A DNA stretch of 64,000 bases, from contig NZ_JAGQDG010000004.1 of the NCBI RefSeq assembly GCF_018069865.1, forward strand, positions 434,001-498,000, given 5' to 3'. The notes under the pieces were generated by a model. It did not search any database, had not been told where the DNA came from, and saw only the letters and a program-made list of their open reading frames with translations. Every line of letters starts with the position of its first letter. Within the stretch, counting starts at the first letter, position 1. Source of the stretch: Ideonella paludis (GTDB taxonomy: Bacteria; Pseudomonadota; Gammaproteobacteria; Burkholderiales; Burkholderiaceae_C). This document shows positions 16,085-26,587 of the stretch, in pieces. Made by a program: the position numbers and the translations under genes.

Positions 16085-17449
16085 TCAATGCGCTGGGGCT
16101 GCTGCCGCAGAGGCTGCAGCCGGGCCTTGCAGCATGTGCTCGCGCCAGCGCATGGCTTGGTGGATGCGGGTGCGGGCACTCGGGTGGTCGAAGAACAGCA
16201 CTTCCTCGATCGGGCCGGGGTCGGCCTTGCGGTACTCCACCAGCTTGAGCAAGGCCTCGGACATGCCCACCGGCTCGCGGGCGGTATTGAGGCCGAAGTA
16301 GTCGGCCTCGATCTCGGCGGTGCGCACGATGGTGTTGATCAAAGGCGAGATCAAGAACATATAGCTGGAAAACACCACCACGAGCAAAGGCAGGCTGGCC
16401 ACATCACTCAGCCGTGTCACCCGCCACGCGGTGCCAAAGCGCGCCAGCAAGCGGCCCATGAGCCAGTTCGACACCGCAAAGCCGATGATCACCAGCAGCC
16501 CCATCTGCAACAGCATCTTGGGCACATGGTTGAGGGTGTAGTGGCCAATCTCGTGGGCCATGACGGCGCGGATCTCGGGCAGGCTGGCCCGCCGCAGGAG
16601 GTTGTCGTTGAGCCGAATGGCTGCCGTGCCGAGCAGGCCAGACACATTGGCGCTGACCCGCGTGGTCTGCCGCGAGGCATCAAACTCAAAAATATTGTCT
16701 GCAGGGACGCCATTGGCTTGTGCCATGGCCAAGACCTGGGTCTTCACCGGCCCGGCCTCCACGGGCTTGTAGGTGTTGAACAGCGGCTCAATGAACACCG
16801 GGCTGACGGCCACCATCACGGTCAACAAGCCACTGACCAGCAAGCCGCCCCACAGCCACCAGCGTGCCCCGCTGCGGCGCAGCACGGCGTACAGCAGGGC
16901 CACCAGCACAGCGCTCAGCACCATGCTGACGGCCAAGTTGAGAACATGCTCGCTCAGCCATTCCCCAAAGCTCTGGGTGGCCATGCCGTATTGGTGCTCA
17001 CGCACAAAGTCTTGGTAAATGCTCAAAGGCAGGCTCAGCACCCAGCCCGCCACGGCATACATCGCTCCATAGCAGGCGTCCACGAAAAAGGTCCGCTTGA
17101 GCTTGCGCTCGGCCCACGCCCTCAAGGCGGTGGACGGGCGCGTCCACAGCAGCAGTGCGGCCAGGCCCAAGCCCCACACCCAGTTCCACAAGTCCAGCCA
17201 GTAGCCGCCTTCAAAGTAGGCGTCTGATCGCGCCTTGACCTCTGCGGGGATGCGGTCCATCCAAGCCTGTGTGGCAGCGTTGGCTTCCACCGGCAGGGCC
17301 GCCACCCAGGCGGCGTCGGCGGGCTTGAGGTAGAAGGCGGAGGAGGCCGCAGCGGCCGGCGCATCAGGGGCGGCCACGGCGGCCGACAGCATCAACACGC
17401 ACAAGGCCAGCAGGGCGGTGGCCCGGTGCCAAAAGGAGAACGTCATCAT
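16085..17449 (-). CDS. M48-family integral-membrane metalloprotease (Ste24/CaaX-protease-like)
   Basis: 454 residues. Signal-like first TM (10-28), then several TMs, and the zinc motif HEIGH at 299-303 flanked by SRQTTRVSANVSGL, typical of the Ste24 branch of M48. The third zinc ligand is the glutamate in RTAEIEADYFGLN. The C-terminal FFDHPSARTRIHQAMRW is also family-typical. Prokaryotes lack CaaX prenylation, so it is probably a membrane-protein quality-control protease. The start MMTF (17449) was chosen because the signal segment follows directly; the frame upstream is low-complexity. Divergent from the retron operon. Confidence 0.9.
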   Translation of the reverse strand: MMTFSFWHRATALLALCVLMLSAAVAAPDAPAAAASSAFYLKPADAAWVAALPVEANAATQAWMDRIPAEVKARSDAYFEGGYWLDLWNWVWGLGLAALLLWTRPSTALRAWAERKLKRTFFVDACYGAMYAVAGWVLSLPLSIYQDFVREHQYGMATQSFGEWLSEHVLNLAVSMVLSAVLVALLYAVLRRSGARWWLWGGLLVSGLLTVMVAVSPVFIEPLFNTYKPVEAGPVKTQVLAMAQANGVPADNIFEFDASRQTTRVSANVSGLLGTAAIRLNDNLLRRASLPEIRAVMAHEIGHYTLNHVPKMLLQMGLLVIIGFAVSNWLMGRLLARFGTAWRVTRLSDVASLPLLVVVFSSYMFLISPLINTIVRTAEIEADYFGLNTAREPVGMSEALLKLVEYRKADPGPIEEVLFFDHPSARTRIHQAMRWREHMLQGPAAASAAAAPAH

Positions 17450-17793
17450 GGGCAGCTTTCGGGATGCGAGGACAAGCCTTGGCGAGCAAGCGCAGGGGCG
17501 CTTTGCTTGCGCCGCAGTGTGCCAGCTTGCAGGCCCGCCCAAGGCCCGGACACCCCCCCACGAATCGCAGTGACACCGACGACCATTGCGCCCTCCCAAG
17601 GCGGGCGACAACACATCGGCAGCAGCGCGAGGTCGACGTGTCTTGGCATTCCTTCATGCGATGAGCGGGTCTCGGTTTGGGCTGCACCTCAATCCATGCA
17701 AAATCGGCGCCCAACAGCACGGTGGCTTTCCATCAGCCACTCCACAGCATTCCAACCCGGCCCCCAAGCCGGGATCGTCCGAGGGAGCCCCCT
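17450..17793. promoter_or_regulatory. Divergent intergenic region upstream of the retron operon
   Basis: 344 bp between the M48 protease start and the start of the helical-repeat protein. It must hold promoters for both directions. I see no convincing consensus promoter; TTGGGC (about 17676) followed at 17 bp by AAAATC is a weak candidate toward the retron genes. GGGAG at 17783-17787 is a good ribosome-binding site for the TTG at 17794. An open frame crosses the region in phase with the downstream gene but is low-complexity and not protein-like. Confidence 0.35.
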
Positions 17794-20700
17794 TTGAGAA
17801 AAATCGGCAGCGCCATCCTGGTGCGACAACGGACGCGTGAGCCTGCCCGAACGGTCGAGGTGATCGCCTTGGACGAGGCGGGGTCTGAGGCCAATGCCGC
17901 AGCGGAGCAGTGTTTGGTGCATGTGCGCAGCGGGCCGCAAGAGTCCACGCTGACCGTGCTGCCCTGCTCCCAGGCTGAAGCCCTGCGGCGGGCGCTGAAC
18001 TACATCCAGCGGCGTCTGGCGGCTGGCGAACAACTGCTATCGCATGACGGCCTGCCGGGGCTGGAGGCACTGCAAGCGGCTGTGCCTGCGCCGGCCGCAC
18101 CCGCGCCTTCGACCGCGCCACCGGCGCTGGCGCCCGCCATCGCCGCACTGGTGGCGCGCTTTCAGCCGGATGCTTGGAAGCTGCAGTCGCCGGAGCGCCG
18201 CTCGCGCAGTGCCTGGCGGGTGGGCGAGTGCAGCGACGCCACTGCCCCAGACAGCCCCACGCAGCAAGCCTTGCGTGGCCTGGCACCGCGCTTGGTCGCT
18301 CTGTTGGGCACCGGGAACGACCTGTTGGATGGGAGCTTGGCCGTGGCCCTCGGTCGCCTGGGCGACCCGGGCGCTGCCGAGGCCCTTCAGCACTTGTCTG
18401 TGCAGGCGCGCAGCCCGGCCACGCGCCGCATCGCACGGCAAGCATGGCTGATGTTGCTGAGCCCTGAGGCCCGTGCCGCTCAAGTGGCAGACACGCTGCC
18501 CGGCTGGGCCGCCCCGCTCGCGTCCGAGCGAGGCGGCCACGAGCTGGTGGCGGAGGTCCAGGCGGCGCTGCAACAGCATGGCCGCGATTGGGCCTCGCTG
18601 CTGCAAGACTGGTACGAGCGGGCCTGGGTGCAGGCTGCGCCGCGCGCTGTGCTGCTGCGGCTGCTGCAAGCGCTACCGTTAGAGGGCGCGTGCTTCCAGG
18701 GTGTGCGCTATGTCTATAAGGCGGCAGAGCTGCGGCGCGACGCCGAAGTCCTCGGCCTGCTGCACGCGCGCTTTGAGAATGCAATGGCTGCGCCGCTGCC
18801 CGAGGCGCGTTCCGGCGCACCGCGCGCGTTCGGCCCCCGCACCCGGGATTACCTGCGCTTGCGTGGCTGGCGCAGCATTCGGCGCTTGGCCGCGCTTTCG
18901 CACCCGCATGCTGCAGACTTAGCGGTGGAGATGCTGCTGGGCCTGGTCGACGATGAGCAGCCGCCACCCCGCGAAGAACAACGTTGGGTGCTTGTGGAGC
19001 AGCGCTACCAACGCAGCGTCCGCCTGCATCATCGTGGCGCGGGGTGGATGCTGGTGCCCAAGCTCTTGCTGGCCCGTTGGCCGGCGCTGCAGACGAGTGC
19101 ACGCGCCAAGCGCTGGTGGACCTTGCAACCCTTGGACACCACGCAAGCCCTGCCAGAGCGCACCGAGGCCTTGCAAGACCTGTGGGACGCCCACCCCAAC
19201 GCCTTGCTGCGCCTGGCCATGGAGAGCCGCAGCGCCCTGGTGCAGGCCGTGGTGGCGCGCGCCCTGCAAGACCATGTTGACGTGCTGGAGGCACAAGCCC
19301 CGGCGGTGCTGAAACGGCTGTTGCAAAGCCCTTACGCGCCCACGGCCGCCCTCGGTTTTGCAACAGCCCGCGCCAAGGTGGAGGGCAGCACGGACATCGC
19401 CCAGCAGATCCCGTGGCTCAAGCTGCTTTCAGGCAGCGCCCATGCGCCGGCCCAAGACTTTGCATTGCTGCACCTGGCGGGCAACCCTGCGGCTTTTGCG
19501 CAGCACGCCGACCTCGTGCTCGCGCTGCTGTTCTCGGCGCAAGAGCGGGCGCGCCGCCAAGGGCACGGCCTGGCCTTGCTGGCCACGCCCGACGCGCTGC
19601 TGGCAGAGCTGCAAGACACCCTGCTGGCCCTGGACCCCGCAGACCCGGGCCTCGCCGAAGGTGCCGCACTGGCTGAACAACTGCTGCAAGGCCCGCTGAA
19701 GGCTGCCGCAGCGGCGTGGCCCGGCCTGGCCTCGGTCTTCACCTTGCTGGACCACCCGGCCGTGCCGGTGCTGAACCTGGCCGTGACGTGGGTGCTCTTG
19801 CATCCCAACGGCCTGGCCTTGATGCCGCCGCTGCTGCTGACCCGCCTGATGCGGGCCGAGAGCGCTGAACGCCGCGCCTGTGGGGCTCGGCTGCTGGCCG
19901 CCCTGCCCGATGCCCTGCTCAGCCAGCAGGTCGAGCTGCTGACGGCCCTGGCCTTGAGTGAACACGCGGCCATACGCGCCGCCATCGCGCCAGCGCTGCT
20001 GCGCCTGGCCCGCAAGGACGACACGCTGGGCCGGGCTCTGGCGGCGCGCCTGCATGACAGCCTGTTCCAGACGGAGCGTGGCGACGACTTGCATGAGGAC
20101 GTGCTGCGCTGGCTCACGGGCGAACTTGCGGCCTTCGCGCCCGCGCGCGAGGCCTCGGGCACCTGGCGCGCCTTGCAGGCCCGCAGCCGAGGCGCACAAC
20201 GCTATGGCGCCTGGGCCTTGGCCGCTCTGGCGCCGGCCGACTTCAGCCTGCGCCAGATGGCCACGCTGGCGCGGCATGCAGACGCCGAGGTGAGGCAATG
20301 GTCTCTTCGCGCCATCGACCACACGCTGGTGGCCCCCATCAGCCCACAGCAAGCGGCCGACCTGCTGCCACTGGCCGACACCGGCTTCGACGACAGCCGC
20401 CACTATGCCCAGCAGCTCTTCGGCGAGAGACTGCCCGATGATGCGCTGGAGGTGGACTTGCTGATCGCCTGGGTGGACCACCCTCAAGCCTGGGTGCAGG
20501 CCTTGGGCCGCAGCCAGTTGGTGCGCCGCATGAGCGCTGCAGACGCCAGCCTGTGCCTGACCCGCCTGAGCCAGCACCCAAGCACCGAGGTGCAGCTCTT
20601 CGTGACGCAATGGCTGCTGGACCTGCCGAGCAGCGATGCGCCAGCCCTCGCGCGACAGTTGCGCACGTTGACGCCGTACCTGCTCACGGTGCTGAGCCAA

Positions 20701-20931
20701 GTGCATCGCGGCCGGGTGGCCAAGGCGCGCATCACCCGCTTTCTGCGGGCGCACATTGAGGCCCCTGAAACCGCCGTGGTGGTGGCTGAAATTTTTGCGC
20801 GTCAGGTGGTCAGCGCCAGCCTCACCGACAAGCCGCAATACATCGCCGGCTTGCGTGACATCGCGGCTCGGCACCCGAGCATCGAGCTGCCCTTCTTGAG
20901 CTGGAAGACCCCGGCCCTGCACCGCCCCTGA
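17794..20931 (+). CDS. Retron-associated ARM/HEAT helical-repeat protein
   Basis: 1045 residues from TTG 17794 (RBS GGGAG six bases ahead). The first ~75 residues form a small alpha/beta domain (MRKIGSAILVRQ, then CLVHVRSGPQESTLTVLPCS). From about 140 to the end it is a long array of degenerate ~35-45 residue helical pairs, rich in Leu/Ala with ALARLGDPGAAEALQ-like ARM/HEAT signatures (for example LAVALGRLGDPGAAEALQHLS and HADAEVRQWSLRAI). No catalytic motif, membrane segment or signal. First gene of an operon with the SWIM protein (6-bp gap), a structured RNA and a retron reverse transcriptase. From memory, ARM + WHSWIM + RT is the gene set of retron type XIII. Probably the effector scaffold or target-sensing partner; role inferred. 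Confidence 0.8.
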   Translation: MRKIGSAILVRQRTREPARTVEVIALDEAGSEANAAAEQCLVHVRSGPQESTLTVLPCSQAEALRRALNYIQRRLAAGEQLLSHDGLPGLEALQAAVPAPAAPAPSTAPPALAPAIAALVARFQPDAWKLQSPERRSRSAWRVGECSDATAPDSPTQQALRGLAPRLVALLGTGNDLLDGSLAVALGRLGDPGAAEALQHLSVQARSPATRRIARQAWLMLLSPEARAAQVADTLPGWAAPLASERGGHELVAEVQAALQQHGRDWASLLQDWYERAWVQAAPRAVLLRLLQALPLEGACFQGVRYVYKAAELRRDAEVLGLLHARFENAMAAPLPEARSGAPRAFGPRTRDYLRLRGWRSIRRLAALSHPHAADLAVEMLLGLVDDEQPPPREEQRWVLVEQRYQRSVRLHHRGAGWMLVPKLLLARWPALQTSARAKRWWTLQPLDTTQALPERTEALQDLWDAHPNALLRLAMESRSALVQAVVARALQDHVDVLEAQAPAVLKRLLQSPYAPTAALGFATARAKVEGSTDIAQQIPWLKLLSGSAHAPAQDFALLHLAGNPAAFAQHADLVLALLFSAQERARRQGHGLALLATPDALLAELQDTLLALDPADPGLAEGAALAEQLLQGPLKAAAAAWPGLASVFTLLDHPAVPVLNLAVTWVLLHPNGLALMPPLLLTRLMRAESAERRACGARLLAALPDALLSQQVELLTALALSEHAAIRAAIAPALLRLARKDDTLGRALAARLHDSLFQTERGDDLHEDVLRWLTGELAAFAPAREASGTWRALQARSRGAQRYGAWALAALAPADFSLRQMATLARHADAEVRQWSLRAIDHTLVAPISPQQAADLLPLADTGFDDSRHYAQQLFGERLPDDALEVDLLIAWVDHPQAWVQALGRSQLVRRMSAADASLCLTRLSQHPSTEVQLFVTQWLLDLPSSDAPALARQLRTLTPYLLTVLSQVHRGRVAKARITRFLRAHIEAPETAVVVAEIFARQVVSASLTDKPQYIAGLRDIAARHPSIELPFLSWKTPALHRP

Positions 20932-20937
20932 ACCGCC

Positions 20938-22623
20938 ATGCAATTCCGCTACAAGTATTACGGCAGCACCACGGTGGACGACTCGTCCACCGCCCAGGCC
21001 TTCAGCTTTGCGCCCGACACGCTACGCCCCCCGACCTTTTTTGAGGGCATGCTGCGGCGCGATGCGTCTTGCAGCCTGGCCCTGCGAGAAGCGCTGTCAG
21101 CCCTGCACGCCGTGGTGGTCAGCGACCAACGCTATCGGGGACGCGACCCCCAGGCTTACCAGCAATGGCTGCAGGCCAATGAAAGCAGCTTGCTGGCGCA
21201 GTTCATGGCGCAGGCGGCGTCGCTGAAGGCCCGCGCCGAAACCCTCGGTGCCGAGCTGAAAAAAGTGCGTGAGGAGAAGTCAGCGCTGCTCGCCCCCTTT
21301 GATGCCGCGCGGCAAAAGTACTTCAACTGGCTGTATGAATCGAACCGCGATGCCTGGTTTGTGCTCGACCCGGTCATCACGGTGCATCCAGAGCGCCTCC
21401 TGTTCGAGGCCTTCAGCCAAGATGAGTCCAGCTATTGCGCCGTCAGCGTGAAGCACGATGTGTTTGACCGCGTGGGCGAGATGGCCTGCGGGACCACCAA
21501 TATCGACTACTCGGCCAGCTTGTTCGACGAGTTCCAAAAGATCCGCGACTACAAGGACACCCGTTTCCGAATCGACCCAACAGGGTTCAATGTCACCACC
21601 GGCACGGACCCGAGTTTTCAAGAATCCAAGATCGACCTGCCCGACAGTTGGGTGCGGGGCTTTTTGCAGGTCTCCAGCGCCATGACCTTGCCGGCCACGG
21701 TGCTGGAGCTGCACCCCATGGATTTGCACAATGTGTGCAGCCTGCTGCGCCAACGCAAAGAGCGCGCCGGGCCGCGCTCGCTGCGCTTTGAGCTGCAACC
21801 GGGCCAGCCCGCCAAGATGGTGCTGGAGCCTTGGCAGATTGAGCTGGTGGCGCGGCGCAGCGCGGTGGTGGGCGCCCCGCTGACCGAGGCCCGCAGCATT
21901 CGGCTCTGGGGCCGCCGCCGCTTGCTGACGCTGGAGCGCTTGATCGCCTTGGCCACTCGCGTGCGTGTGCACCTGCTGGGCAGCGGCCTGCCCAGCTTCT
22001 GGGTGGTGGAGATGGGGGACATCACGGTCACGCTGGGCCTGTCGGGCTGGACCGCCAACGATTGGTCTCAGGCAGGCCGCTTCGATTTGCTGCAGACCCG
22101 GCACGAGGTCAGCGACTTGGCCAAACAGCGGGTGGCGCAAGCGCTGCAGTCAGCGTGGCTGGCCACCCCCGCCGAGCTGGCGGAGCGCACCGGCCTGGCG
22201 CAGGCCGACGTGCAGGCCGCGTTGACGCTTTGGGTGCAGGCAGGCCGGGCCGTCTTTGACCTGCCTAGCGGGCGCTTTGCCTGGCGCGAGCTGTCGCGCG
22301 AGCCGCTGCCTTTGGACAGCTTGCGCTTTGCCAGCCCCGAAGAAGAACAGGCCCTCGCCCACGTTCACGCCCGCCGCGCGCGCTTGACCGAGGTCACCGA
22401 GCACGGCGAGCGCATTCGCCTGCGTGGCAGCGTCAAAGACGGCCGCCACAGCCATGAACCCACGCTCCTGCTGAACACGGATAGACAGATTCAAGAGGGC
22501 ACTTGCCAGTGCAACTTCTTCACCCAGAACCGGCTGCGGCGTGGCCCCTGCAGCCACATGCTCAGCGTGTTGTTGCTGGCACAAGCCAAGCTCACGGCCG
22601 CACCGGCCAAGGAGGTCGCATGA
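20938..22623 (+). CDS. Retron-associated winged-helix/SWIM zinc-finger protein (WHSWIM)
   Basis: 561 residues. The C-terminal SWIM zinc finger has CxC-n-CxH: Cys523, Cys525, Cys538 and His540 (TCQCNFF, GPCSHML). A winged-helix-like segment lies at about 391-454 (RVAQALQSAWLATPAELAERTGL, DVQAALTLWVQAG). The N-terminal ~380 residues are not recognised; residues about 80-110 are a coiled coil (LKARAETLGAELKKVREEKSALL). SWIM fingers bind DNA or protein, so this is the probable nucleic-acid-contacting partner of the msDNA or the helical-repeat protein. It begins 6 bp after the ARM gene with no obvious RBS, which suggests coupling. The retron RNA starts 25 bp after its stop. Confidence 0.8.
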   Translation: MQFRYKYYGSTTVDDSSTAQAFSFAPDTLRPPTFFEGMLRRDASCSLALREALSALHAVVVSDQRYRGRDPQAYQQWLQANESSLLAQFMAQAASLKARAETLGAELKKVREEKSALLAPFDAARQKYFNWLYESNRDAWFVLDPVITVHPERLLFEAFSQDESSYCAVSVKHDVFDRVGEMACGTTNIDYSASLFDEFQKIRDYKDTRFRIDPTGFNVTTGTDPSFQESKIDLPDSWVRGFLQVSSAMTLPATVLELHPMDLHNVCSLLRQRKERAGPRSLRFELQPGQPAKMVLEPWQIELVARRSAVVGAPLTEARSIRLWGRRRLLTLERLIALATRVRVHLLGSGLPSFWVVEMGDITVTLGLSGWTANDWSQAGRFDLLQTRHEVSDLAKQRVAQALQSAWLATPAELAERTGLAQADVQAALTLWVQAGRAVFDLPSGRFAWRELSREPLPLDSLRFASPEEEQALAHVHARRARLTEVTEHGERIRLRGSVKDGRHSHEPTLLLNTDRQIQEGTCQCNFFTQNRLRRGPCSHMLSVLLLAQAKLTAAPAKEVA

Positions 22624-22636
22624 GCGGTGGCTCGCA

Positions 22637-22642
22637 TATACT
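22637..22642 (+). promoter_or_regulatory. Candidate -10 box for the retron RNA
   Basis: TATACT matches the sigma-70 -10 consensus at five of six positions. A start seven bases downstream would fall at 22649, exactly the first base of the a1 repeat. No good -35 is visible at 16-18 bp upstream, so this may be weak, and the RNA may also come from the operon transcript. Confidence 0.35.
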
Positions 22643-22648
22643 GAAACC

Positions 22649-22877
22649 GAGTGCAGTGCGCTGGCTCTTGCAACCCGGGCGGTGTTTCGCCGCCCTTGTT
22701 CACCGCCGTTCTATGCGCCACGGGTGCCGTCTTCACTGTGCCGGGCTGCCACCCATCGCGCAATGCCAATCGGGCTCGCTTCGAGCACATTGGCGCGATG
22801 GGTGGCGCCCGGCGTCGAGTGGACAGCCCCCGTCCCTCAAGCCTTTCAGGCTCTTCGACGAGAAGCGCACTGCACTC
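22649..22877 (+). ncRNA. Retron msr-msd RNA
   Basis: Bounded by a perfect 14-bp inverted repeat: a1 GAGTGCAGTGCGCT (22649-22662) and a2 AGCGCACTGCACTC (22864-22877), the diagnostic a1/a2 pair that primes msDNA synthesis. The msr part has an 8-bp hairpin with a UUU loop (22677-22695) and a possible short ACGG/CCGT hairpin (22720-22730). The msd part has a long hairpin (22740-22813: a 7-bp GC base, then a 12-bp stem around CCACCCATCGCG, then an inner GCTCG/CGAGC stem). A second stem CGTCGA/TCGACG (22813-22818 with 22855-22860) encloses two small hairpins, GGAC/GTCC and AGCCT/AGGCT. The branching G is probably 22663 or 22664, just after a1. It lies directly upstream of the RT gene, as in known retrons. 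Boundaries of msr and msd are inferred. Confidence 0.85.
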
Positions 22878-22924
22878 ACCTTTTCCCACGCGCCAAGGCG
22901 CCCTGCCAATGCCAGATCAAGGCT

Positions 22925-22947
22925 CAGCACAGCCTGCGGAGGTGCTG
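22925..22947 (+). promoter_or_regulatory. Hairpin presenting the RT ribosome-binding site
   Basis: CAGCAC (22925-22930) pairs perfectly with GTGCTG (22942-22947). The loop carries most of GGAGG (22938-22942), and ATG follows at 22949. The Shine-Dalgarno sequence is strong and correctly spaced (six bases), so this hairpin may tune rather than block RT translation. Confidence 0.4.
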
Positions 22948-22948
22948 C

Positions 22949-24850
22949 ATGACGGAGCGCACCCCCACCCGTGCGGAGTTGCTGGCCCGCATCGCCCTCA
23001 GCAGCAAAGACGCCGTCGTCTTGGCCGAGATGCAACGCCTGGGTTTTTGGCCCAAGGATGCCGCGCAACCCACACTGGAATCAGCCCTGATCCAGCGCGA
23101 GGCAGAGCTGCAGCAAGCGCTCAACGAGCTACAGGATGAATTGAGGGTCAAGGGCGACCCCCAAGCGGCCTTGCAAGCCATGCGGCAAGCGCGCATGGCG
23201 CGCGCACGCGAGCAGCGCGAAGCCCACGCCCAAGTCCGCGAGAAAGCGCGTTACGAGCGCGCCCTGCGCTGGCACCAGGCCCGCGACACCGAGGTGGGCT
23301 TTCTGGGCCTGGGAGTCTCGGGCGGGCTGCAGGCGGACGCCGACCCGGCCGGCACCACAGCACGCTTGGTGCGCAGCGGTTTGCCGGCCTTGAGCACACC
23401 GCTGGAACTGGCCCAAGCCATGGGCCTGGGTTTGCCGGAGCTGAAGTTTCTGTGCTTTCACCGCGAGGTGGCCCGCACCACGCATTACCGCCGCTTCGAT
23501 CTGCCCAAGAAGACCGGCGGCGTTCGGACCATCTCGGCGCCCATGCCACGGCTCAAGCGCGCGCAGTACTGGGTGTTGGATCAGATCCTGGTCAAAGTGC
23601 CGTGCCACGATGCCGCACACGGCTTCATGCCGGGCCGCAGCATCGTCAGCAATGCGGCGCCGCATTGTGCGCAAGCAGTGGTCATCAACCTCGACCTGAA
23701 GGACTTCTTCCCCAGCATTCACTTCCCGCGCATCAAGGGCGTCTTTCAAGGCTTGGGCTATGGCGAGGCCGTGGCCAGCCTGCTGGCCCTGCTGTGCAGC
23801 GAGAACGTCTGCGACGAGTTGGAGGTGGATGGCGAGCGCTTTTTTGTGGGCGGCAAGGGCCGTGAGCGCGTGCTGCCACAGGGCGCGCCCACCAGCCCCA
23901 TGTTGACCAATATCTTGTGCCGCAAGCTGGACCGGCGGCTCCAGGGCTTGGCCGACAAATTGGGCTTCACCTACACCCGCTATGCCGACGACCTGACCTT
24001 CTCGGCGTCTGAGGAGGGCGCCACGCGGGTCGGCAGCCTGCTGCGTCAGGTGCACCATGTGCTGCGCAGCGAGGGCTTCACGCCGCACCCCGACAAGCAG
24101 CGCGTGATGCGCCAAGGGGCTCGGCAAGAAGTCACGGGGGTGGTGGTCAATGCCAAGCCCTCGGTGTCGCGCACCGAACGCCGCAAGCTGCGCGCGGCCT
24201 TGCACCGCGCGAAGACGCAAGGGCTGGCGGCCGCCACCTGGCAGGGGCAAGCCGCCAGCCGGGACGTGCTGGTGGGCTATGCCCGCTTTGTGCGCATGGT
24301 CAGCGCCCCCCAAGGCCAAGCCCTGCTGCAACAAGCCCTGGCTTTGCCTGGCACGGCGCCCTCAGCGGCGGCTGCCCGTGCTGACGCCTTCCGCGTGATG
24401 GCCGCCAAGGGCCAGGCACCGCAGCGCCGGCAAGGGGCGTGGTGGCAGCCCACGCCGCCGCCGCTGCCGCAGCTCGCCTTGACGGCACAGCAGGTCAAGA
24501 CGGCTCGCCAAGAGCGGCTGAATGCCGAGCGCGCAGCGCGCCAAGCGGCCAAACGGCCGGCAGCACCCGCACAAGGCCGCGACGCGAACACCCAGGCGCC
24601 AGGGATGTCTCACACCCAAGGCCACACCCCAGACGCCCCCACCACCAGCGCCCCACCCGTGTCGTGGTGGCGTTTCTTCCTGCAGTTGTTCATCCTGATC
24701 CGCGTCGCCGTGGGCCTCAAGAGTGCGCTGTTCTTGATGTTGGGGGCGCTGTGCTTGGGCCATGCGTTGATGACGCGTCGCCAGGGCTGGATCCGGTTCG
24801 CCCTGACCTTGGTGATCCTGGCCGTGTTGAGCAGCTTTACCAAGCTCTAA
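22949..24850 (+). CDS. Retron reverse transcriptase with C-terminal membrane tail
   Basis: 633 residues. The RT core (about 165-450) has KKTGGVRTISAP, motif A NLDLKDFFPS with Asp249/Asp252, LPQGAPTSPMLTN, and catalytic YADD at 345-348. Two retron-specific markers are present: NAxxH (NAAPH, 235-239) and VTG (395-397). A ~120-residue N-terminal extension is a charged coiled coil ending in GFLGLGVSGGL, which I recall from myxobacterial retron RTs. After the thumb, a Pro/Ala-rich linker (about 485-570) leads to two predicted membrane segments (about 573-605 and 613-631), unusual for retron RTs. It makes msDNA from the RNA encoded just upstream. ATG 22949 was chosen because GGAGG lies six bases before it and the longer frame runs through the RNA. 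Confidence 0.93.
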   Translation: MTERTPTRAELLARIALSSKDAVVLAEMQRLGFWPKDAAQPTLESALIQREAELQQALNELQDELRVKGDPQAALQAMRQARMARAREQREAHAQVREKARYERALRWHQARDTEVGFLGLGVSGGLQADADPAGTTARLVRSGLPALSTPLELAQAMGLGLPELKFLCFHREVARTTHYRRFDLPKKTGGVRTISAPMPRLKRAQYWVLDQILVKVPCHDAAHGFMPGRSIVSNAAPHCAQAVVINLDLKDFFPSIHFPRIKGVFQGLGYGEAVASLLALLCSENVCDELEVDGERFFVGGKGRERVLPQGAPTSPMLTNILCRKLDRRLQGLADKLGFTYTRYADDLTFSASEEGATRVGSLLRQVHHVLRSEGFTPHPDKQRVMRQGARQEVTGVVVNAKPSVSRTERRKLRAALHRAKTQGLAAATWQGQAASRDVLVGYARFVRMVSAPQGQALLQQALALPGTAPSAAAARADAFRVMAAKGQAPQRRQGAWWQPTPPPLPQLALTAQQVKTARQERLNAERAARQAAKRPAAPAQGRDANTQAPGMSHTQGHTPDAPTTSAPPVSWWRFFLQLFILIRVAVGLKSALFLMLGALCLGHALMTRRQGWIRFALTLVILAVLSSFTKL

Positions 24851-24908: not shown

Positions 24909-25880
24909 TCATTTGCGCTTGGCGCGCGGATGGGCCGCGTCGTAAACCTTGGCCAGGTGCTGAAAGTCCAGCCGGGTGTAGACCTGGGTGGTGCTGATGT
25001 TGGCGTGGCCCAGCAGCTCTTGCACGGCGCGCAAATCGCCACTGGATTGCAGCACATGCGAGGCAAAGCTGTGGCGGAGCATGTGCGGGTGCACCGAGGT
25101 GGGCAGGCCGGCATCCAAGGCCAGCGCTTTGAGGCGCAGGCGGATGGCCGCGTCGCTGAGGCGCTGGCCGCGGCGCCCCACAAACAAGGCGGGCTCTTGG
25201 GCACCCGCCAGCGTGTCGCGCACGGCGAGCCAGGCTTGCAGGGCCTTCAAGGCGGGGCCGCCCACCGGCACGCTGCGGCGTTTGCTGCCCTTGCCCAGCA
25301 CATGGGCGGTGGCGTCGGGCACATCGACCCAGCCTTTGGCGCCGGGGCTGGCGTGGGCATCCAATCCGACCAGCTCGCTGATGCGCAGGCCGCTGCTGTA
25401 GAGCAGCTCGACGATGGCATGGTCGCGCAGCGCCAGGCGCTCATCGCCATCTTCGCGTTCATGGCTGGCCAAGGCCACGGCCTGATCGACTGACAAGGCC
25501 TTGGGTAAAGGCTTGGCCGCTTTGGGGCCGCGCACGCCCTCGACGGGGTTGAGGCTGACGCCGCCCTCTTGGCCCCACCAGCGGTAGAAGCTGCGCCAGG
25601 CCGACAGCTCCAGCGCCAAGCTGCGCGGGCCCAGACCCTGGCCATGCAGCAGGGCGCTGAAACGCCGGACATGCGCCGGCTTGAGATTGGCGATCTCCAG
25701 CCCGTGCTGCTGCGTCAAGCCCAAGAGGCGTTGCAGTGCAGTTTGGTAGAGCACCAGCGTGCGCGGCGCCAAGCGGCGGCTGACTTGCACGTGCTCCAGG
25801 TAGCGGGCCATGGGCGCTGGCCAGGGCAGCAGCGGTGCACCGGCCGGGGCCGAGATCAGCGCGTCAGGCGGGGCTGTCAC
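24909..25880 (-). CDS. xerC: Tyrosine recombinase XerC
   Basis: 323 residues from GTG 25880. An N-terminal SAM-like core-binding domain (20-115) and a catalytic domain with Arg166 (SGLRISELVG), Lys197 (LGKGSKRR), His266/Arg269 (HPHMLRHSFA), His292 (LGHANISTTQ) and nucleophile Tyr301. Works with XerD at dif to resolve chromosome dimers. It follows DUF484 and dapF in the conserved dapF-DUF484-xerC order, which marks it as housekeeping XerC rather than an integrase. The frame is open upstream into DUF484, but homologues start near this GTG. Convergent with the retron RT gene. Confidence 0.93.
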   Translation of the reverse strand: MTAPPDALISAPAGAPLLPWPAPMARYLEHVQVSRRLAPRTLVLYQTALQRLLGLTQQHGLEIANLKPAHVRRFSALLHGQGLGPRSLALELSAWRSFYRWWGQEGGVSLNPVEGVRGPKAAKPLPKALSVDQAVALASHEREDGDERLALRDHAIVELLYSSGLRISELVGLDAHASPGAKGWVDVPDATAHVLGKGSKRRSVPVGGPALKALQAWLAVRDTLAGAQEPALFVGRRGQRLSDAAIRLRLKALALDAGLPTSVHPHMLRHSFASHVLQSSGDLRAVQELLGHANISTTQVYTRLDFQHLAKVYDAAHPRAKRK

Positions 25881-25897
25881 GCTGCTGTGCTCTGCGC

Positions 25898-26587
25898 TCA
25901 GGGCAGCAAGCGCGCCAGGGCAGCGCTGGCGATGTCGCCAATCTGCTCCAGCAGCTCGACACCCATGTCGGACTGATAACGCAGGGCATCGGGCGAGCCC
26001 AGCGCCAGCAGGCCAAAGCACTGCGCGGCGGTCTTGCCCAGGCGCAGCGGCACCAACGCCATGGACTGCACCGGCACCTCGGGCTCAAACCAAGACGCCG
26101 CTTCAAAGCCGGAGTTCAGGCCGCAATAGGGCATGGTCAAGCTGGCGGCCAAGGCCTTGGCATCATCGCTGACGGTTTGGCTCAAGTTCAGGGCAGCATG
26201 CTCAGGCGCCAAGCCCCAGACGCGCAAGGCCACTTGGGGCACCATGAACTCGTGCTTCAAGCCGTCGATCAAGGCGGCCTCAATGGCTTGGGCTTCGCGG
26301 GCCAGCAGCATGGTGCAGGTCCAGCGATGCAGCCGGCCGCTCAAGGCTTCGTTATCCTGACCGGCCCGGATCACGTCCATGAACTTGCGCTCCAGGCCCT
26401 TGATGCGGTCACGCAGCAGCTCAATCTGCCGCTCTTGCAGCGACACCGCGCGTGCGCCGTGGGGGCTGACCAACTGCACGGTGGAGAGCAGTTGGGCGTG
26501 GCGCTCAAAAAACGCGGGGTTGTTGGCCAGATAGCCCGCGATGTCGTCTTCAGTGATGCCGGACACGCCGGTGGGGGAGGTGCTCAC
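25898..26587 (-). CDS. DUF484 family protein (GAF-like)
   Basis: 229 residues. It starts with the helix [29 protein letters not shown] and [21 protein letters not shown], both hallmarks of DUF484, followed by a GAF-like domain (about 80-225). Function unknown, though the gene sits between dapF and xerC in many proteobacteria. Overlaps dapF by 4 bp (ATGA) and ends 17 bp before the xerC start. Confidence 0.9.

Follow-up and report, generated by a model that had tools for sequence, protein, structure and literature searches.

In retrons of types I-C, XI and XII the effector is a part fused to the reverse transcriptase (RT). Type XIII is said to be defined, in the 2020 typing by Mestre and colleagues, by an ARM protein and a WHSWIM protein together with the RT. 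Two further systems invite comparison, the type IX retron Kva2 and the retron Eco6, the latter presumably the same as Ec48. In type IX, a winged-helix pocket cradles the stem loop of the multicopy single-stranded DNA (msDNA) (PMC13405049), and the accessory protein of Eco6 has two predicted transmembrane helices (PMC8989520). Searches of the open-licence literature, one of them covering the best 20 of 187 matches, gave no experiment on type XIII among the matches listed and one passing mention, a type XIII retron called by PADLOC in Variovorax (PMC11953036). Here we describe a locus at positions 17794-24850 of a stretch of 64,000 nucleotides of Ideonella paludis DNA (assembly GCF_018069865.1, contig NZ_JAGQDG010000004.1, positions 434,001 to 498,000 of the forward strand), referred to as the window. 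Profile matches assign the locus to retron type XIII; its RT is predicted to be a membrane protein and its SWIM protein to contain a sliding-clamp fold.

Results

Assignment of the locus to retron type XIII

The locus is encoded on the plus strand and runs from a HEAT/ARM gene through a SWIM gene and an msr-msd RNA to an RT gene:

17794-20931, plus strand: HEAT/ARM-repeat protein gene, 1045 aa, TTG start, matched by PADLOC WGR_XIII
20938-22623, plus strand: WHSWIM protein gene, 561 aa, ATG start, matched by PADLOC SWIM_XIII
22649-22877, plus strand: msr-msd non-coding RNA (ncRNA), 229 nt, identified by folding, a1/a2 arms and covariation
22949-24850, plus strand: retron RT gene, 633 aa, ATG start, matched by PADLOC RT_XIII

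Six bases separate the HEAT/ARM gene from the SWIM gene, and 325 bases the SWIM gene from the RT gene, with the RNA inside the latter gap. A preliminary description of the window had given this four-part layout and strand correctly to the base, including the open reading frames (ORFs), the 229-base RNA and its 14-bp arms, and had placed the locus in type XIII. The PADLOC profiles agree, matching the three window proteins with E=1.3e-243 (WGR_XIII), E=2e-214 (SWIM_XIII) and E=8.4e-173 (RT_XIII). The ARM and SWIM models are matched nearly full length and RT_XIII over residues 2-508, with a score of 573.7 bits against 340.6 for the next-best RT model, a gap of 233 bits. The ARM/HEAT (WGR) and WHSWIM genes adjoin the RT and their order is kept in relatives; the PADLOC type XIII models and the window share the same three genes, with msr-msd ahead of the RT in both. 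On these matches the locus belongs to retron type XIII and, as a whole, is a member of an already known kind. The RT_XIII match stops at residue 508, so that a membrane-like tail of the window RT is uncovered. A lone or broken retron is ruled out, as the three ORFs of the window copy are open and their motifs intact, and the genome itself holds a single RT_XIII match.

Pfam recognised RVT_1 in the RT (9.4e-23), a sub-threshold SWIM in the second protein and no family in the large one; despite the PADLOC label WGR_XIII, WGR was thus unseen by Pfam in the window copy. Neither Pfam nor NCBIfam, at the limits applied, detected a Toprim, trypsin-like protease or TIR domain fused to the window RT, and the best stretches of the PADLOC models for fused RTs (RT-Toprim, RT-Protease and RT-TIR) fell within RT residues 147-471, which is the RT part. 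The window RT resembles those of types I-C (Toprim), XI (protease) and XII (TIR) in having a conserved extra part after the RT domain. Unlike them, its extension is a hydrophobic tail and no enzyme, and two more proteins are encoded.

Co-occurrence of the four parts in other genomes

SWIM_XIII matches were counted at E ≤ 1e-20 in order, phylum and family sets of genomes, which overlap and include the I. paludis genome. They were found in 7 of 399 order genomes, 4 of 398 phylum genomes and 13 of 299 family genomes; among the last 13, G975 and G1045 gave only weak matches (E ~1e-30), and the SWIM gene of G975 is of the RT-free kind described below. Strong matches came from 18 distinct genomes, I. 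paludis included, all 18 of which hold ARM, SWIM, ncRNA and RT, in one stretch in 17 of them (the RNAs of G279 and G853 were read from their records L012 and L003). Co-occurrence of ARM, SWIM and RT and an RNA linked to the RT were among the checks that the preliminary description had proposed, and both were passed, with the three genes together in 18/18 strong-match genomes and an msr-msd with a1/a2 arms adjoining the RT.

The remaining genome, G1015, is split, with ARM and SWIM on one contig (L048), next to a gene that we take to be acpS, and RT_XIII on another (L077), accompanied by an a1/a2 element of 218 bases with 12-bp arms. Its RT frame is broken between residues ~41 and 70, and its ARM and SWIM genes are open. 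ARM and SWIM as a stand-alone system in G1015 is ruled out by the RT_XIII and ncRNA on the other contig, and the two halves would act in trans if the RT is functional. In a quick tree of SWIM proteins L048 fell inside the retron clade, on an end branch flagged as long, with a six-row group supported at 94, below the starred limit. G1015 also has a second, weaker RT_XIII match (E 7.3e-79) at G1015:C1:384834-385913 (L076, L078), with a TGA inside the matched stretch.

A scan with the RT sequence over one genome per species, 84,980 species in all, gave 12 loci. Ten carry ARM, SWIM, ncRNA and RT, the ARM gene being broken in one of these (L002); the contig of another (L006) begins inside the RNA, and the last (L013) is a different retron. 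All four parts are also present in Methylobacterium bullatum (L079), an alphaproteobacterial case. For the comparisons below, L042 and L047 were dropped because they were taken to be the records L012 and L003 (first 600 bases of the RT match identical, contigs equally long), and L013 as not type XIII. L040, a near-copy of L039, was left out of alignments A1-A4 and kept among the 26 RTs; L002 was left out of the ARM alignment (broken gene) and L006 out of A1, and L048 was used in A3 and A4, with no RT in place.

The RT and its hydrophobic tail

Two parts of the RT lie outside the best-matching stretches of retron RTs of solved structure:

22949-23368, plus strand: N-terminal extension of the RT, residues ~1-140, with many invariant residues
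24662-24847, plus strand: C-terminal hydrophobic tail of the RT, residues ~572-633, with two to three predicted membrane segments and a basic loop

The motifs of retron-type RTs, NAxxH, YxDD and VTG, are present as NAxxH, YADD and VTG and do not vary among the 25 aligned RTs; the invariant residues in alignment A2 include N235, A236, H239, Y345-D348 and V395-G397. A profile search of the Protein Data Bank (PDB) with the window RT placed retron RTs first (Ec86, E 3e-61), and the best-scoring stretches listed for these begin at window residue 176 at the earliest.

The tail was measured as the 19-residue Kyte-Doolittle mean (KD19) over the last 85 residues. The maximum KD19 is 2.19 in the window RT, and the tails of all 26 type XIII RTs reach at least 1.7, where 1.6 was reached by 526 of 10400 shuffles. 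Between the start and YADD+150 the type XIII RTs have no KD19 window above 1.46. Among six non-XIII control RTs, four (L013, L059, L064 and L065) are without a hydrophobic window after YxDD+100; the tail of L066 is too short for a window, and in L063 the longest motif-bearing frame stops near YxDD. The control search had eight matches, of which three, L060-L062, were themselves type XIII.

The sequence of the tail varies and its hydrophobic character stays. By hydropathy, each of the 26 type XIII RTs has at least one hydrophobic segment long enough to span a membrane. Most members carry a basic stretch between the last two tail segments, and three (L045, L046 and the Methylobacterium L079) have two segments followed by a terminal run of basic residues. 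Both forms agree with the positive-inside rule, which would place the RT in the cytoplasm. The type XIII RT is thus predicted to be a membrane protein by virtue of its C-terminal hydrophobic tail.

The SWIM protein and its predicted clamp fold

Three regions were distinguished in the SWIM protein:

21037-22056, plus strand: predicted PCNA/9-1-1-like sliding-clamp fold, SWIM residues 34-373, with a helical insert at ~66-140
22114-22287, plus strand: winged-helix region, SWIM residues ~393-450, helix-helix-helix-strand-strand in the model
22504-22557, plus strand: SWIM zinc finger, residues C523-H540, with CxC..CxH intact in 25/25

Pfam SWIM was matched at E up to 0.1 in 21 of the 25 family members, the window copy being under the gathering score. 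Winged-helix matches in Pfam were weak and confined to some SWIM relatives (DprA_WH in 4/25), and one of the 25 proteins gave an isolated weak match to GCV_T (1.4e-4). The alignment of the 25 members has more than 100 invariant columns.

An AlphaFold2 model built from 25 sequences (mean pLDDT 72.7, pTM 0.73) shows two alpha/beta domains with the order of elements found in a sliding clamp. Foldseek against the PDB returned sliding clamps in all of the best 50 rows, with a best E of 5e-9 and TM-scores by target of up to 0.68. By VIA-align the model superposed on chain G of 8fs5 with Z 19.7 and rmsd 2.9 over 248 residues at 9% identity; 8fs5 is the Rad24-RFC/9-1-1 complex, in which chain G was taken from the alignment as a clamp subunit. 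Many PCNAs aligned to model residues 33-373 with Z ~19, the best 50 rows spanning Z 18.8-19.7, and in the BFVD list viral clamps stand at the top, with phage clamps also present. A PCNA/9-1-1-like clamp fold of two similar domains in the SWIM protein is well supported as a prediction. The helix at 325-338 carries a charge of +3 to +4 in all members, with an invariant WGRRR (324-328) at its start. SWIM residues 34-373 resemble PCNA/9-1-1 clamps in predicted fold; unlike them, the SWIM protein has a large helical insert and fused DNA-binding domains, and its ring is putative. A PDB sequence search with the SWIM protein returned no clamp chain.

The msr-msd RNA

The RNA at 22649-22877 is bounded by a perfect 14-bp inverted repeat, GAGTGCAGTGCGCT / AGCGCACTGCACTC, and contains the following parts:

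22649-22662, plus strand: a1 arm, a perfect inverted repeat with a2; 13 of 13 modelled pairs covary in 24 sequences
22663-22673, plus strand: conserved GGCTCTTGCAA directly after a1; G15, G16 and C19-A24 invariant in 24/24
22677-22695, plus strand: msr hairpin (helix 4), 100% of cells paired
22723-22830, plus strand: long msd hairpin (helices 5-7), varying in sequence with pairing kept
22849-22863, plus strand: conserved GGCTCTTCGACGAGA directly before a2, nearly invariant in 22/24 rows
22864-22877, plus strand: a2 arm, an inverted repeat with a1, with covariation

Folding of 22640-22890 gave -133 kcal/mol against a shuffle mean of -95.6 (200 shuffles, z -7.55, none as good). An element of 211-235 bases was found in 25 of 25 loci searched, the window included and L006 set aside because its contig begins inside the RNA, and afterwards also in L077 and L079. 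RNAalifold on a 24-row alignment gave 68 pairs, 47 of which have both sides changed with the pair kept. The cells paired amounted to 96.9%, compared with 77.6% in shuffles and 37.5-48.8% in slid versions, and the covariation score was 0.520 compared with 0.171 in shuffles; none of the five RNA measures was reached by shuffles (0/500), although relatedness of the rows can by itself lift them above shuffles, and a structure will tend to beat slid versions of the alignment from which it was derived. The stronger evidence for a structured RNA comes from the size of the gap and from the changes on both sides of pairs, seen at all 13 pairs of the a1/a2 arms and, in the long msd helix (helix 6), at 19 of 20. 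A chance hairpin is ruled out by the z of -7.55 and the covariation. Rfam 15 has no family at gathering score in the window.

The sequence GGCTCTTCGAYGAGA right before a2 is near-invariant, L045 and L046 deviating. The near-invariance of GGCTCTTGCAA and GGCTCTTCGAYGAGA is what would be expected of priming and start sites: the priming (branch) G is probably G15 or G16 of the RNA, and the stretch directly before a2 is the expected start of reverse transcription. The two near-invariant parts, 22663-22673 after a1 and 22849-22863 before a2, have GGCTCTT in common as a direct repeat.

The large HEAT/ARM protein

Further in-frame starts lie upstream of the HEAT/ARM gene at 17677 and 17722; close relatives initiate at the equivalent of 17794, with TTG, GTG or ATG. 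The AlphaFold2 model of the protein (pLDDT 88) shows a small beta-rich domain (residues 1-85) followed by a long alpha solenoid. Across the family Pfam found HEAT_2 in 6 of 24 members and WGR weakly in one (E 0.0075), neither of them in the window copy, and an isolated weak match to DNA_alkylation in one (0.017). Fold searches gave generic HEAT/ARM matches only among the rows listed (best Z 11.4), which rules out a special fold for the solenoid among those rows. Pfam, NCBIfam and PADLOC recognised no clear catalytic domain in either the ARM or the SWIM protein of the window.

SWIM relatives without an RT

Homologues of the SWIM protein also stand in loci of another kind. At L056:7082-11127, on the minus strand, one adjoins DUF6493/DUF7825 proteins, and at L057:9298-15631, on the plus strand, one adjoins DUF6493/DUF7825 and DUF6493/DUF7824/HEAT proteins; no RT was noticed among the ORFs scanned at either. 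The L057 protein aligned by hhalign to the type XIII SWIM protein over residues 143-550 (probability 99.7%, E 1.5e-26). These loci share with type XIII a SWIM homologue beside large, partly HEAT-like proteins, and differ from it in that no RT or msr-msd was noticed in the parts examined and the large proteins are unmatched to the type XIII ARM protein. Homology between that protein and the DUF6493 proteins of these loci was unsupported by hhalign (probabilities 0.6% and 0.3%), a comparison of single sequences with a profile that a distant link could escape. Proteins of a similar kind annotated as 'SWIM zinc finger family' occur in Streptomyces and Asticcacaulis.

Insertion site and mobility

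The flanking genes are both on the minus strand, at 16085-17614 and 24909-26021; from sequence and general knowledge we take the first to encode an M48 protease and the second to be xerC. A scan for sigma-70 promoters and terminators gave nothing better than chance. In G935, which belongs to the same genus, ~105 bases separate the xerC match from that of the M48 protease and the gap holds no retron (L071:2257-2362); by comparison with the window this junction is an empty site. In the nearest relative, the Ideonella metagenome-assembled genome MAG2 (L002), the retron lies between the same two flank genes; its ARM match at L002:4264-5989 is without residues 1-299 and 506-683 and falls into two pieces in different frames, and its SWIM, ncRNA and RT are open. 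Since L002 shares the site and G935 has it empty, the insertion predates the split from L002 and is not genus-wide. In two further genomes of the genus, G1011 had no M48 match within the 8 kb taken and G836 no xerC match at E <= 1e-60.

GC content is 0.65-0.71 across the locus, like its surroundings, which bears out the host-like, GC-rich composition given in the preliminary description. The long residence that it had suggested partly on this basis was not supported: host-like GC is no proof of long residence, because the same-genus site in G935 is empty. The other retron loci showed none of the seven flank genes in the flanks examined. Phage records gave no SWIM match, and none was found among the IMG/VR contigs holding one of two conserved peptides. 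Plasmid records gave a single full-length relative, from Methylobacterium bullatum, whose 2.8-Mb replicon is labelled a plasmid; the other four SWIM proteins found in them are distant. The locus is best explained as an accessory and probably anti-phage element inserted between the M48 protease gene and xerC.

Discussion

The explanation that best fits the whole, to which we give an even chance, is a type XIII retron tethered to the membrane, in which the clamp-winged-helix protein reads the msDNA stem. The RT would prime at a G just after a1 and copy the RNA from just before a2, and the branched msDNA so made would carry a long duplex hairpin. This hairpin would be bound by the clamp/winged-helix/SWIM protein, the WGR/HEAT protein would keep the complex together, and the RT tail would place it on the inner membrane, a location suggested by the tail itself. 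Phage attack on the msDNA or its bound proteins would then lift a brake, whereupon the membrane-embedded part would damage or seal off the membrane and the infection would end with the cell. By analogy with the types whose effector is fused to the RT, the likeliest effector may be the RT's own tail, an assignment we make tentatively and at somewhat less than even chance.

Parts of this arrangement have counterparts elsewhere. Type IX Kva2, which has a HEPN protein and a winged helix, likewise pairs a winged-helix partner with an msDNA stem loop (PMC13405049); unlike Kva2, the window retron has no recognised HEPN RNase, and its winged helix shares one chain with a clamp-like domain and a SWIM finger. 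The membrane component of Eco6 is encoded in a separate gene, as opposed to being part of the RT as in the window retron (PMC8989520).

Several observations weigh against the membrane-tethered, msDNA-reading arrangement. The membrane segments were called by hydropathy and some are marginal, L041 has one clear tail segment only, and the tail might do no more than anchor the protein. The set of controls is small; among the five non-XIII matches that the control search gave, four have stop codons in the matched stretch, so that some control RTs may be decayed. The clamp fold comes from one AlphaFold2 model of moderate confidence (five models with mean pLDDT 64-73), in which ten-residue blocks in the 140-240 region have values of 47 to 81; the sequence is ~10% identical to those of clamps, and no clamp family is among the Pfam matches of the 25 SWIM members. 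Basic charge is confined to aA2 and aB2 among the putative inner helices, the other two (aA1 and aB1) being without it, so that charge gives no support for encirclement of DNA by the SWIM clamp. Finally, ARM and SWIM seem non-lethal without the RT, because in G1015 the RT is broken and both are open. The same break speaks against a plain model of ARM and SWIM as a toxin held by the RT, as does L002, where ARM is broken and the rest open; both frame breaks could be sequencing or assembly errors.

The rival that survives best takes the HEAT/ARM or SWIM protein as the effector, for example as a nucleic-acid binder that blocks replication, with the RT tail anchoring the complex where phage DNA enters. 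A separate effector gene is common in multi-gene retrons, the more than 100 invariant columns of the SWIM alignment go beyond what a mere adaptor would need, and L002 has ARM broken beside open SWIM, ncRNA and RT, as if ARM were costly. The window ARM and SWIM proteins, however, have no clear catalytic domain, matches in single relatives being isolated and weak, and in G1015 the two persist despite the broken RT frame on another contig. We regard this rival as possible, on the doubtful side of even. The preliminary description had likewise favoured ARM or SWIM, as effector or sensor. The results did not establish either as the effector: neither shows a clear enzyme and the RT tail is at least as good a candidate.

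An unlikely alternative is that the clamp-like SWIM protein serves the RT as a processivity or recruitment factor, or acts as a mimic to capture replisome proteins of host or phage, so that the retron monitors replication. It would account for the clamp fold (Z 19.7) with viral and some phage clamps among the close matches, and for an msd hairpin that keeps a long duplex while its sequence varies. However, known msDNAs are short and are not known to need a processivity factor, ring formation by the SWIM protein is putative only, and related SWIM proteins stand beside DUF6493/DUF7824/DUF7825 proteins with no RT noticed. A retron-derived element with a non-defence role, in gene regulation or stress, is very unlikely: no type XIII defence assay was found among the open-licence papers searched, but other studied retrons defend against phages, and the patchy distribution, differing flanks and empty same-genus site are the pattern of defence genes.

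Returning to the membrane-tethered arrangement, a fuller version can be framed, which we consider speculative and rather improbable as a whole. The RT would be its own effector by way of a C-terminal membrane hairpin, and a bacterial PCNA/9-1-1-like SWIM clamp, fused to DNA-binding domains and recruited from an older RT-free module, would grip the msDNA stem and keep the system inactive until displaced by phage replication proteins. If true, we know of no earlier example of a retron with a sliding-clamp-like sensor.

The membrane tail of the type XIII RT, the clamp fold of its SWIM protein and the lack of a clear partner enzyme were not found described in the open-licence papers searched, a set outside which the typing paper (Mestre 2020) lies. 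From the covarying alignment of the msr-msd RNA a family model could be built. The RT tail and the SWIM clamp fold turn labels with no role attached into specific hypotheses about where this retron acts and what it senses, and the wider SWIM family, found also in RT-free loci, may be a conflict system in its own right, borrowed by retrons.

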